This document shows positions 22,300-26,396 of a stretch of 64,000 bases of DNA, in pieces (the first letter of the stretch is position 1; each line of letters begins with the position of its first letter). The stretch is from Bdellovibrionales bacterium CG10_big_fil_rev_8_21_14_0_10_45_34 (GTDB taxonomy: Bacteria; Bdellovibrionota; Bdellovibrionia; Bdellovibrionales; 1-14-0-10-45-34). A program made the position numbers and the translations under genes. The stretch spans positions 256,995-320,994 of the forward strand of contig PEZS01000011.1 in assembly GCA_002778785.1 (NCBI GenBank), written 5' to 3'. The notes below the pieces were generated by a model. The model was not told the origin of the DNA. It was given only the letters and a program-made list of their open reading frames with translations, and made no database searches.

Positions 22300-24333
22300 T
22301 CAGTTCCAAACGGGAGAAAACGAACCGACTGCGTCCATAGAACCACAGCTGGATTCAGAAGCTTGAGTTGCTTGGCGTGGAAAGACTTGAAACGGTTCAC
22401 TGTAGAGTGTCTTTTCCCAGGGGAACAAGGGGTTTACTACATGGCTACTTCGAAAGGATTTTAGTTCATCTAGGCTCATACCGTAGACGCCTTTCATCGT
22501 AGGGATCATTGCCCAGGATAAACCGCTCTCAGGATGAAAGTTACATCCGGTAAACTCCATTAGAAGATTCATATAGCCCTGAATCAAAGCGTCGTAGAAT
22601 CTCTGCCTTTTTAGGTCATCTGAATCATCAAGAGTTGAAAGCGCCATATTCGTTTGATTTTGCGCCACGAGATAGTTGCTCATTGTTTTGTGAAATCGAT
22701 CAAGAATAACGCAGGCACCTTCACTGATCGGTCGGCCTAAGTCTCCCTCGATATAACACTTAGTTGTGTCGCCGCTATTGGGATATGTAATTCGATCAGC
22801 ACTAATTAAATCTTTCATCCAACTTTCTGTCGATGCGACATCGATAAGCCCCGCATGCAGCCAATAAACCATACAGCGAGTTAAGCGAGAAAGCTCTACA
22901 TTCGTACTGCCTCCAGAGCTCCCCGAACTGAGTGTTATTTCACCCGCCGTCGAAGCGTTCGCTTGTGATGGGTCGCAAGGACTGCCTCCCACACCGCCGC
23001 TGATCTGAAAGAGACGATATAAAAAGGTTCCCGTGTTTTTGAAACCTGGCAAGCCCCCGCTTGAACTGTAAAGCACAACACCGCGACCGCTTTCAATACT
23101 CTCGGTAAGACCGAGAAAATTTCTCATATAGATTCTCAGTCCAAAAGCCTCACCGCTTTGACTTGTTTTGCGAGATTCAGGTGAAGTTAGATTGTTGACG
23201 TCAACCGGCCTGACCGCTGCCGCAGTCCTGCCCATAGCGAGAGTTTCGTGTAACTGCGATAAGAACTTTTGTGCCACTGGCACACTCCAGCCCCCACCTT
23301 GATCGTAATCGACAAATCGAAGGTCAAGCCGCTTCGCTTTCGCGCTTCGAAACTCTGTACCCTTATAGTCTTTTTGCGAAAGAAATATTTCGTAAGTGCG
23401 AGAATTGCTTTCGATGCCGTCGGCCGTCTTTCGCCAAAAATTGTAGCCTCCCCTAGAAGGAATTGTGCGAACCCCTGTGCTTGCTGAAAAGTAACCATTG
23501 TAACTGGCGTTCGGAGGCTGAGTTGATCCTGCCGGCAATGGCTGACAAGGAACATTTTCTATGAGCGCAAAATCAATGCTTTGGTTTGCTGAATGAACTG
23601 GGTCTTCACGAATGAGCACATTGACTTTATTTGGCGATAAACCATTCGGGTCTCGATGGCAAAAGCCCGTAATGGAACTTCTTTTGACCCCGTTTTCTTG
23701 AAACTTGAATTCAAAACGGTCACCAATAATTTTTTCAACCCGAATAAAATCATAAGACCAATAGTCACCTAAAACATTTGTTTGGCCCGCCCGGGTGTCC
23801 AAGTAAGGCGATGGGGGAATAGCTTGCGTCAAAACGCTCATTTCGTCCCGAGAGCCGGGCCCCCGAAACGGATTGTCTAGATCATCTAGCCCTAAAAGTG
23901 CCACTTCGAATTTAGCTTGGCCGTTACCCGACAAATTGAGTTTGTGAAATTCTGTTATGACGATCTCAAATCGTCCTCGTTCGCATCCTTTAACACCCAT
24001 TTCGGAACCACTTTTAACAACTCTTCCATCCGAATCTAAGAATCCCCAGTCGAGCCGAGTCCTTTTGAACCCACCGTCGTCGCAGTTTCCTCTAAATGCG
24101 ACCTCACTATCGGTAATAGAAACGATGCGAGAGGGCGAGGTTTGATTAGCGTCCGTCTCTACTTGAATGGAAAGCTTATTTGGGTCGCCTGTACCATTGG
24201 AACAGTCCTGCCCAGTACAAAATGAACCTACTCCTACGGCAGCCCAAGGACTGTTACCGCCCACTTCTGCACAATTCTGATATATAAGGGCTGATGAAAA
24301 CAATCCTATTAAGAAAATTGCCAGTCTCACCAT
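22300..24333 (-). CDS. Large exported protein of unknown function
   Basis: I do not recognise this 677-residue protein. It opens with a hydrophobic export signal (VRLAIFLIGLFSSALIYQNCAEVGG); the cysteine after YQN is not in a standard lipobox, so lipoprotein status is uncertain. The mature protein has Ser/Gly-rich stretches (SSGGLPGFKNTG, SSGSSGGSTNVE), several cysteines, and many aromatic residues, as in bacterial cell-surface proteins. A beta-rich N-terminal half precedes a helical C-terminal half (about 450-677). The ATG follows GGGGGA at 11 bases. It is divergent from the oppABCDF operon, across a 299-base spacer that holds the small-RNA candidate. No enzyme motif is evident. Confidence 0.7.
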   Translation of the reverse strand: MVRLAIFLIGLFSSALIYQNCAEVGGNSPWAAVGVGSFCTGQDCSNGTGDPNKLSIQVETDANQTSPSRIVSITDSEVAFRGNCDDGGFKRTRLDWGFLDSDGRVVKSGSEMGVKGCERGRFEIVITEFHKLNLSGNGQAKFEVALLGLDDLDNPFRGPGSRDEMSVLTQAIPPSPYLDTRAGQTNVLGDYWSYDFIRVEKIIGDRFEFKFQENGVKRSSITGFCHRDPNGLSPNKVNVLIREDPVHSANQSIDFALIENVPCQPLPAGSTQPPNASYNGYFSASTGVRTIPSRGGYNFWRKTADGIESNSRTYEIFLSQKDYKGTEFRSAKAKRLDLRFVDYDQGGGWSVPVAQKFLSQLHETLAMGRTAAAVRPVDVNNLTSPESRKTSQSGEAFGLRIYMRNFLGLTESIESGRGVVLYSSSGGLPGFKNTGTFLYRLFQISGGVGGSPCDPSQANASTAGEITLSSGSSGGSTNVELSRLTRCMVYWLHAGLIDVASTESWMKDLISADRITYPNSGDTTKCYIEGDLGRPISEGACVILDRFHKTMSNYLVAQNQTNMALSTLDDSDDLKRQRFYDALIQGYMNLLMEFTGCNFHPESGLSWAMIPTMKGVYGMSLDELKSFRSSHVVNPLFPWEKTLYSEPFQVFPRQATQASESSCGSMDAVGSFSPVWN

Positions 24334-24451
24334 ATTTAAAAAGTCCCCCGAATAGCACGTCAGTCAAATCGATTATATGCGACTTGAGAGTGTCGAACTG
24401 GTGTCTACCTACTAAGTATCGGATTGATCCGTCCCAAAATTGAGCCCGACT

Positions 24452-24480
24452 TTGGGTTGGCACTGCATTTGCTCTATATA
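24452..24480 (+). promoter_or_regulatory. Overlapping sigma-54-like and sigma-70-like promoter
   Basis: TGGCAC-N5-TTGCT at 24458-24473 matches the sigma-54 consensus, with GG and GC separated by exactly 10 bases. The same stretch is framed by TTGGGT (24452-24457), a 17-base gap and TATATA (24475-24480), a sigma-70-like pair. Both predict transcription starting near 24484-24488, just before the terminator hairpin. Confidence 0.5.
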
Positions 24481-24483
24481 TTT

Positions 24484-24538
24484 GTAACCCCCCTGAGCGG
24501 CTTGGTCTCCCCCCCTTTGCCAAGCCGCTTTTTTTTTG
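24484..24538 (+). ncRNA. Candidate short C-rich small RNA or leader attenuator
   Basis: The predicted transcript of about 50-55 bases starts at the promoter above and ends at a strong intrinsic terminator. There is no room for a gene and none is annotated upstream on this strand. The RNA would carry two C-rich single-stranded stretches, AACCCCCC before the stem and UCUCCCCCCCUUUG in the terminal loop. The loop could pair with G-rich Shine-Dalgarno sites, of which this genome segment has several. Alternatively, the element is the leader of the oppA transcript, whose start codon is about 95 bases downstream. Boundaries are inferred from promoter and terminator positions only. Confidence 0.45.
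24496..24538 (+). terminator. Strong intrinsic terminator without an upstream gene
   Basis: Perfect 10-bp stem AGCGGCTTGG (24496-24505) / CCAAGCCGCT (24520-24529), a 14-base C-rich loop, and an uninterrupted T tract directly after the stem. The T tract shows it works on the + strand. The nearest + strand gene upstream ends at 22186, with a long minus-strand gene between. Confidence 0.85.
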
Positions 24539-24576
24539 CCAAAATCACCCCTCAGACAGCTAAAATTCTAATAGTT

Positions 24577-24606
24577 TTGAAGATTTAGCGTTTTCACAAC
24601 TATGGC
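24577..24606 (+). promoter_or_regulatory. Possible sigma-70-like promoter of oppA
   Basis: TTGAAG (24577-24582), an 18-base gap and TATGGC (24601-24606) lie after the terminator and 27 bases before the oppA GTG. The -10 match is weak. It would let oppA be expressed independently of the upstream short transcript. Confidence 0.25.
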
Positions 24607-24632
24607 TAGTCTACTGATAGGGGAAAAATCTC

Positions 24633-26396
24633 GTGAGGCTCTTCGGTTCCAAACACAGACTTCAATTAGAAATTATTTCAAAAACGTTACGAAAAATGTC
24701 GCTGCTGGCTGCCGCATCGACACTCCTTTGTGCCTGTTGGGATGCGGAACAAAGGCCAGAGGGATTTGTTCGGTTATCTCTATCACAAAGCTTAAGAAGT
24801 TTAGATCCGATTGATGCGACCGACTACTCCAGCCAACTTGTGCTGTCCCAGATTTACGAAACCTTAATTAGTTACGAAAACACTCAGGCTTCCTCAGATC
24901 GCAGAAAACTTAAGCCCCAACTGCTTGAAAAAATGCCGACCTATTCGGACCGGGGCAAAAAGGTACATCTTTCGCTCAGGAAAAATGTCTTTTTTCATGA
25001 TCACGCCGCATTTAAAAAGTCTAACGGTAGAGGTCGCAAGCTAGTTGCCGGCGATATAGTTTATTCTTGGAAGCGATTGTGGTTGTCCTCTCAGTCGAGC
25101 TCTGATAGTCGCGCGTTCTTTAGTAAAATAGTTGGCCTCTCTAAATGGAGAGAGGGCGTGAAAAGTGGAAGTATAAGATTCGATGACGACATTGAAGGTC
25201 TCATTGCTACAGATGAACAAAATCTCGAATTAGAATTCAGCGAACCCTTTAGACAGTTCGAGTTGTTACTTACGCAAGTGATGACCGCTCCAGTCCCCTT
25301 TGAAGCTTTGGCAGAAAGCCCAAAAGCGCTCAACTTAACGAGTGTAGGGACTGGGCCTTACAAACTGAAATCAGCAGATTTGGAAAGTCAGATTTTGTTA
25401 GAAAAGAACGAGAGCTATTGGGGATCTGTCGAAAACAATGGTGTGGAGTTTTACAAGATGTCTGACTCACAACCTAGATGGCTGAATTTTATGAAGGGAG
25501 AACTTGACTGGATCACTGTCGATGAAGAAACCTCCATGACCGCCTACGAAGGAGGCCAACTCCAACCCGCAGTCAAAGAGATGGGTATCTCAGAAGTGAC
25601 TGTCAATTCCCCCGATATCGTCTACCTTGCATTTAACATGGAAGATGCAGTTGTTGGTCGCAGTCGCGCCCTTCGGCAAGCCATCTCTATGAGTATAGAC
25701 AGAAATGCCATCCTGAGCTCGGTATATATGAACTTGGGATCTGAGGCCCACGGGCCCATACCTATAGGCGTCGAGGGGTTCCGTTCGGATTTTAAGAATC
25801 CTTATTCGACCCGCGATTTAGAAAAAGCAAAGGAACTCCTTGCTAAGGCGGGCTACAACGACGAGCACCCGGTACCGACGCTAACAATTGAAAGTTTGTC
25901 CGATGCAGCTAATAGGCGATTCGCTGAGGTGTTTAAGAGTCAGCTAAAAGAAGTAGGGATCGAAGTTAAGATATCCTTGAACTCCTGGCCCGAACTCGTC
26001 CGCAAGCAAAAACAAAAAGAAGGGCAAATCTACGGCCCCATCGCTTGGATCGCCGATTATTTAGACCCGGCCAATATATTTCAGTTGTTCTTATCTTCAG
26101 AAGAAAGTCCGGGGCTCAACGTCTCTAATTACAACAACTACGAATTTGATCGCCTGTTTCGAAAGTCGCTCAAAGAGGAGGGGCGCAGCGAAAGAACTGA
26201 GGTTTACGAAAAAATGTTGGAGATTATAATCGAGGATTCTCCTTGGGTGTTTTTGGTTCATCGAAAAATTCGGTATTTGGTTCACCCTTGGATTTCCAAT
26301 TTCTCTCCGGATCGGGTTGACCTGTCGTTTATTAAGAATGCGAAGGTTGACCTTGGTGTAAAGAAAAACCAGAAACAATCTCTCTTTAGAAGATGA
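24633..26396 (+). CDS. oppA: Oligopeptide ABC transporter, substrate-binding lipoprotein
   Basis: Periplasmic binding protein (SBP family 5) that captures peptides for the membrane transporter encoded next. The 587-residue product has a signal peptide with a lipobox-like LCAC (cysteine about residue 35), then the family pattern RSLDPIDATDYSSQLVLSQIYETLISYE, KVHLSLRKNVFFHDH, LVAGDIVYSWKRL, and the later TGPYKLKS and YLAFNME...RALRQAISMSIDR segments. The GTG at 24633 follows AGGGG. It overlaps the oppB start by 4 bases (ATGA). As the first gene of a five-gene operon, it may be controlled by the promoter and terminator signals in the spacer upstream. Confidence 0.93.
   Translation: MRLFGSKHRLQLEIISKTLRKMSLLAAASTLLCACWDAEQRPEGFVRLSLSQSLRSLDPIDATDYSSQLVLSQIYETLISYENTQASSDRRKLKPQLLEKMPTYSDRGKKVHLSLRKNVFFHDHAAFKKSNGRGRKLVAGDIVYSWKRLWLSSQSSSDSRAFFSKIVGLSKWREGVKSGSIRFDDDIEGLIATDEQNLELEFSEPFRQFELLLTQVMTAPVPFEALAESPKALNLTSVGTGPYKLKSADLESQILLEKNESYWGSVENNGVEFYKMSDSQPRWLNFMKGELDWITVDEETSMTAYEGGQLQPAVKEMGISEVTVNSPDIVYLAFNMEDAVVGRSRALRQAISMSIDRNAILSSVYMNLGSEAHGPIPIGVEGFRSDFKNPYSTRDLEKAKELLAKAGYNDEHPVPTLTIESLSDAANRRFAEVFKSQLKEVGIEVKISLNSWPELVRKQKQKEGQIYGPIAWIADYLDPANIFQLFLSSEESPGLNVSNYNNYEFDRLFRKSLKEEGRSERTEVYEKMLEIIIEDSPWVFLVHRKIRYLVHPWISNFSPDRVDLSFIKNAKVDLGVKKNQKQSLFRR

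Follow-up and report, generated by a model that had tools for sequence, protein, structure and literature searches.

Qrr and GlmY/GlmZ are sigma-54-dependent small RNAs of gamma-proteobacteria, and Qrr and GlmZ depend on Hfq. We take them to be longer than the RNA reported here and to lack a C-rich terminator loop of its kind. C-rich single-stranded loops are known from 6C/B11 of mycobacteria, where they pair with G-tracts at ribosome-binding sites (PMC10470900); according to that paper and to a title cited in it, this action is reported to be independent of RNA chaperones. In Helicobacter pylori, the C/U-rich terminator loop of RepG pairs with a homopolymeric G-repeat (PMC8295292). Finally, eight attack-phase RNAs of 98–655 nt, three of them with FliA promoters, have been listed for Bdellovibrio bacteriovorus, and the attack-phase RNAs were reported to have no homologues outside this species (PMC3627812).

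The predicted small RNA that we describe (family A) resembles 6C/B11 in its C-rich unpaired stretches and in the G-tract ribosome sites proposed as its targets. By contrast, 6C is actinobacterial and consists of two stem-loops, whereas family A has one hairpin and a free 5' C-run and is predicted to be sigma-54-driven. RepG differs in having a second stem-loop and a target repeat that lies in the tlpB leader and is phase-variable in length, and it comes from another lineage; its promoter is presumably different as well. Family A has in common with the attack-phase RNAs and merRNA that all are intergenic small RNAs of the same order, but it is not one of APsRNA1–7 or merRNA as judged by size (a size comparison only), because none of those listed is shorter than 98 nt. 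Neither family A nor a second RNA (family B, see below) gave a match in Rfam at gathering or relaxed thresholds. The score against 6C (RF01066), a model with two C-rich stem-loops, was 20.9 bits for a cut-off of 47, and LhrC, ncS54 and Xoo2 gave only weak matches to their covariance models, far below the gathering cut-offs (19.6/110, 19.6/43 and 15.7/45 bits, respectively). A literature search, made without most subscription journals and preprints, found no paper describing family A. We have filed it as a new small-RNA family, inferred to act like known C-rich antisense RNAs and lying outside the families tested.

The window, i.e. the whole stretch of 64,000 nucleotides that was analysed, belongs to the genome called G000 below; positions given without a contig are those of the window. 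The features of the locus are as follows.

22300–24333, minus strand: divergent gene upstream, no Pfam match, outside the RNA gene
24458–24473, plus strand: sigma-54 promoter, −24 (TGGCAC) and −12 (TTGCT) elements, exact match, TGGCACTGCATTTGCT
24484–24538, plus strand: small RNA of family A, about 48–55 nt, predicted 5' end at G24484 and 3' end in the T tract
24488–24493, plus strand: 5' single-stranded C-run CCCCCC (5–8 C in 72 of 72 distinct copies)
24495–24530, plus strand: terminator stem-loop, 12 pairs (10-pair consensus stem across copies)
24507–24518, plus strand: C-rich loop CUCCCCCCCUUU (CTCCCCCCCTTT), the proposed seed (longest loop C-run 5–10 in 67 of 72 copies)
24529–24537, plus strand: T tract, T9, read from the sequence
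24633–26396, plus strand: oppA-like gene (SBP_bac_5), downstream neighbour, outside the RNA gene

The sequence TGGCAC-TGCAT-TTGCT at 24458–24473 is an exact match to the sigma-54 −24/−12 elements, as the preliminary description of this DNA had claimed; the sigma-70-like pair in which it saw this site nested is weak and was missed by our promoter scan. Its statement that no plus-strand gene ends here was borne out, the intergenic region (24334–24632) lying between a divergent minus-strand gene and the oppA-like operon (24633 onward). The genome contains one rpoN gene (209 bits) and eight exact sigma-54 sites, compared with one for the reversed pattern and about 1.5 expected, by our estimate from base composition alone, in a genome of this size; sites with two mismatches occur in the window at chance level. 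Several of the other seven exact sites precede genes, e.g. a fliL-like gene. With a relaxed pattern, 24 sites were obtained in 861 kb of the genome, only three of which have a terminator within 260 nt, and two of these three are the family A site and a site at C1:279877 that is described below. A one-mismatch site followed by a convergent terminator (L059:17708) was set aside, the terminator probably being that of the neighbouring gene.

The start of the RNA, near G24484, is inferred from the spacing to the −12 element, and the stem begins about 12 nt past it. In this stem, GAGCGGCUUGGU (24495–24506) is paired with GCCAAGCCGCUU (24519–24530). The perfect 10-bp terminator with a T tract that had been described beforehand is thus present as a hairpin followed by a T tract, but its length has to be amended to 12 pairs, G-U pairs being counted. 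The predicted fold of the 55-nt RNA has an energy of −20.1 kcal/mol (z = −6.45), and none of 200 shuffled sequences was as stable. When 111 terminator-like sites from 861 kb of the genome were ranked by a score of our own, this terminator came fifth. Covariance model R1 matches the RNA at G000:C11:281478–281531 (E 2.2e-11).

When the genomes of the order Bdellovibrionales were searched for a sigma-54 site followed after 10–40 nt by CCCCYC, matches were obtained in 48 of 141, and none with the reversed control. Most of them share the arrangement AACCCCCC–NNGGCGGCCWGG–C-rich loop–CCWGGTCGC–TTTTT, i.e. the design of the window RNA. The tests of promoter and RNA were separated by means of a pattern that describes the RNA only and makes no use of the promoter. 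Over 257 Gb of genomes, this pattern gave 68 matches, where about one was expected by chance (our estimate); 64 of them belong to Bdellovibrionota, B. bacteriovorus kdesi and B. qaytius among them; a few of the 64 carry only broad labels, e.g. 'Proteobacteria bacterium', and were so counted because their design matches. The four unrelated matches (L167, L170, L185 and L193) have neither the promoter nor the C-rich loop. In 62 of the 64 copies, the C-run is preceded at 13–22 nt by a sigma-54 site; in these 62 sites GG and TGC are each invariant (62/62), the T before GG is found in 59 and TTGC in 61–62, and the 5-base spacer varies. The hallmark of a sigma-54-dependent small RNA gene, a conserved −24/−12 at a near-fixed distance, is thus met. 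rpoN was found in 127 of the 141 genomes and, being nearly universal, makes its co-occurrence with the RNA uninformative.

Model R1 matched 112 of the 141 genomes of the order (89 of the 103 of good quality; 53 of 66 genera), usually with one copy per genome; outside the order, matches were found in two genomes of a 291-genome sample of the phylum. Weak matches still mostly bear a sigma-54 site, and a few copies (in G044, G035 and G009) have no recognisable one. The stem covaries: 40 cells of the alignment changed on both sides, versus 8.8 in shuffles, 99.8% of cells are paired, and pairing is lost in slid controls. The longest C-run of the loop comprises 3–10 C across copies. Because the search pattern demanded a 5' run of at least five C and prescribed some of the stem, leaving loop and promoter free, the conservation of the first two is partly by construction. 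A conserved C-rich unpaired seed and an intrinsic terminator, two of the properties expected of a C-rich-loop antisense RNA, are present. Comparison of the promoter regions of the copies yielded no strong k-mer that could be a conserved upstream activator site, and an OppA-based search of genome contigs for close relatives returned none. Conservation of promoter, loop and terminator in relatives, the check proposed in the preliminary description, thus holds order-wide and extends to the 5' C-run, which strongly supports its reading of the locus as an orphan sigma-54 small-RNA gene, expression remaining unproven. In the absence of transcript data, we conclude from sequence that the window very probably carries a real gene for a C-rich regulatory RNA of about 50 bases, present in most of the order.

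Some weak R1 matches, L316 and L317 (G082) and L318–L320 (G066, G065 and G067), are hairpins that are rich in C at the 5' end or in the loop, and most have no sigma-54 site; they may be further hairpin RNAs of Bdellovibrio-like genomes.

Targets were predicted by pairing the loop with the ribosome sites of 717 sampled genes of G000, a check that had also been suggested beforehand, and the best duplex was that with a DksA/TraR-like gene (PF01258).

G000:C11:330848–331216: DksA/TraR-like gene, best candidate target, ribosome site GGGGGGGGGG (aaGGGGGGGGGGaATG)

Orthologues of this gene in other families have ribosome sites of the AGGGGGG type, with at least five consecutive G in 22 of 29 (that of G000 included), compared with 2 of 261 in seven control gene families. 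Further orthologues and paralogues follow the same trend, both Bdellovibrio copies included, others having GGAGGGG. The dksA and control sets come from overlapping, not identical, genomes, with start codons chosen by a simple rule, and since orthologues are related, these counts are not independent events. The dcd gene of G000 has a G6 ribosome site as well; since at least five G were present in only 3 of 30 orthologues, it was ruled out as another conserved target. A conserved G-run at the ribosome site of the candidate target, a further property expected of a C-rich-loop antisense RNA, is therefore met, and the suggestion that C-rich loops act on G-rich ribosome sites gains support from the dksA-like G-runs, pairing itself being unproven. 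The same cannot be said of the window genes that had been listed as targets: sites with at least five G occur in 50 of the 717 sampled genes, so that those genes are not specifically supported. Since this amounts to about 7% of the genome's own genes, the target set may be broad.

Two observations concern DksA-like genes more generally. The second DksA-like gene of G000 (L287, in the G000:C5:10170 region) has a G7 run, aaGGGGGGGttatgaacggagtaATG, slightly further upstream of its start. Also, a partly palindromic element around TAAATA...AGTTCCAAWTTGGMACT, which is operator- or promoter-like, is shared by several of the sequences that precede the dksA-like gene in different genomes (L223, L228, L232, L233, L241 and L246).

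We consider it likely that family A is a trans-acting, sigma-54-dependent RNA of about 50 nt that pairs with G-run ribosome sites, the dksA-like gene being its best target. In this mechanism, the firing of a sigma-54 activator would lead to transcription of an RNA made up of an unpaired 5' C-run and a single terminator hairpin with a C-rich loop; its C-runs would pair with G-runs overlapping ribosome-binding sites, and pairing would block translation without Hfq, the DksA/TraR-like mRNA being the best conserved candidate. The proposal builds on the conserved G-run, with the action of B11/6C (PMC10470900) and the resemblance to RepG (PMC8295292) as precedents. That the effect is repression and not activation is assumed from precedent; transcription, pairing and the activating signal are likewise inferred. 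Hfq (PF17209) was detected in none of 60 genomes of the order, G000 included, and was matched in five control genomes. Family A thus fails as an Hfq-dependent small RNA, which would require Hfq to be encoded, and the absence of Hfq is compatible with chaperone-free C-rich pairing as reported for 6C/B11.

It is possible, though on balance unlikely, that the RNA does pair with mRNAs and that dksA is not among its targets, many weak or other targets taking its place; the dksA G-run would then have another cause, such as a slippage-prone tract, another RNA or a strong ribosome site. The abundance of G-rich ribosome sites among the sampled genes fits this possibility, as does the lack of a clear link between the RNA and the dksA G-run across genomes: G006, G044 and G058 have the RNA without the G-run, and in G001, G015 and G023 the G-run is present and the RNA undetected. 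However, nine gene families were tested (the dksA-like one, dcd and seven controls), and only the first has the conserved G-run.

An improbable alternative to mRNA pairing is that the RNA binds a protein, acting as a decoy that captures a protein which binds C-rich RNA or degrades RNA. A protein ligand could tolerate C-runs as variable as those observed (5–8 in the 5' run, 3–10 in the loop), and also the absence of loop–target coevolution: the pairing energy of the loop with the dksA ribosome site of its own genome was no better than with those of other genomes (permutation p = 0.84, 35 genomes). Yet the G-runs, conserved at the dksA-like ribosome site and absent from the controls, fit base pairing, and C and G runs allow so little specificity that seed–target coevolution is supporting, not defining, evidence.

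The neighbours of the gene bear on whether it acts in cis or in trans. In 54 of the 64 copies, amiC (N-acetylmuramoyl-L-alanine amidase) is the gene downstream of the RNA, and RNase PH (rph), RdgB/Ham1 and others come next; five Bdellovibrio copies lie beside those same amiC-region genes in reversed orientation, and oppA follows the RNA only in the window and in a single further genome (L152/G002). Because promoter and terminator are kept while neighbours and orientation change, we infer an independent trans-acting RNA gene. The attenuator of an oppA leader put forward in the preliminary description, whose terminator would decide on read-through of the polymerase into oppA, has very little left in its favour. 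The oppA gene has the same orientation and starts 95 nt past the T tract, a clear promoter being absent between the two, and the neighbour is the same in L152; but the roughly 12 nt from start to stem are too short for an antiterminator, amiC takes the place of oppA in most copies, the RNA points away from amiC in Bdellovibrio, and, the window apart, oppA follows in only one copy of the 64. The conserved linkage to a regulated gene that a cis-acting oppA leader calls for is accordingly not met, and the RNA is best read, from its sequence context, as an independent trans-acting small RNA. A tiny protein-coding gene can be practically discounted: an ATG follows the C-run in some Bdellovibrio copies (CCCCCCATGGCG), but TTGG or other bases replace it elsewhere, and since the loop measures anything from 10 to 25 bases, in single-base steps, no reading frame is kept and no peptide encoded. 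Nor is there any real prospect that the locus holds no RNA gene and that a consensus site merely came by chance to lie beside an insulating terminator: the number of exact sites expected at random and the chance-level two-mismatch sites would allow it, but the order-wide promoter, spacing, C-run, stem covariation and C-rich loop already refute it. The locus, its promoter and structure, its independence of neighbours and the dksA-like G-run are established by computation.

Another exact sigma-54 site, at C1:279877–279892 on the minus strand, has no gene in front of it and is followed by a predicted 80-nt RNA with a terminator and three C-rich unpaired stretches.

G000:C1:279784–279892, minus strand: small RNA of family B (L033/L329), about 80 nt, two hairpins, a separate family

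Its design comprises TTACCCCTC, a hairpin with the loop CGCCCCACG and a terminator with the loop CCCCTCC. Family B occurs in families f1, f3, f5 and f8 (G000, G002, G004, G007 (twice), G013 and G019), and the copies that were read lie behind sigma-54 sites; the G004 copy, found by the model alone, carries TGGCAT-N5-TTGCT.

Two more exact sites of G000 deserve mention. Downstream of a third one without a plus-strand gene ahead (L032/L081, G000:C1:19593–19637, plus strand) lies ACAACCCGCCCGACCCCCCGC, which may be another C-rich RNA, with no clear terminator. The site L035 (G000:C5:101669, minus strand) lies ahead of a gene for a membrane-anchored product, and the first codons of this gene overlap a hairpin that resembles a terminator, TTTAAGCCTCT/AGAGGTTTGGG, and has a T-rich tail; either the start codon could be misplaced or there may be a short RNA there.

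To our knowledge, merRNA and a handful of attack-phase RNAs are nearly all that is known of regulatory RNAs in the predatory Bdellovibrio group. Family A is order-wide and mostly single-copy, with a fixed sigma-54 promoter, a conserved candidate target (a DksA-like regulator) and a minimal design that adds only a free C-run to the terminator. It makes testable both the role of sigma-54 in Bdellovibrionales and the action of small RNAs where no Hfq gene is found. More tentatively, and with rather less than even confidence, we propose that the Bdellovibrionales have a core, Hfq-free, sigma-54-dependent C-rich riboregulator that silences DksA-like regulators and other G-run mRNAs, some families having a second C-rich RNA. 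If this proposal is true, the riboregulator would link a sigma-54 signal with the stringent-type programme, perhaps when the predator changes between attack and growth.
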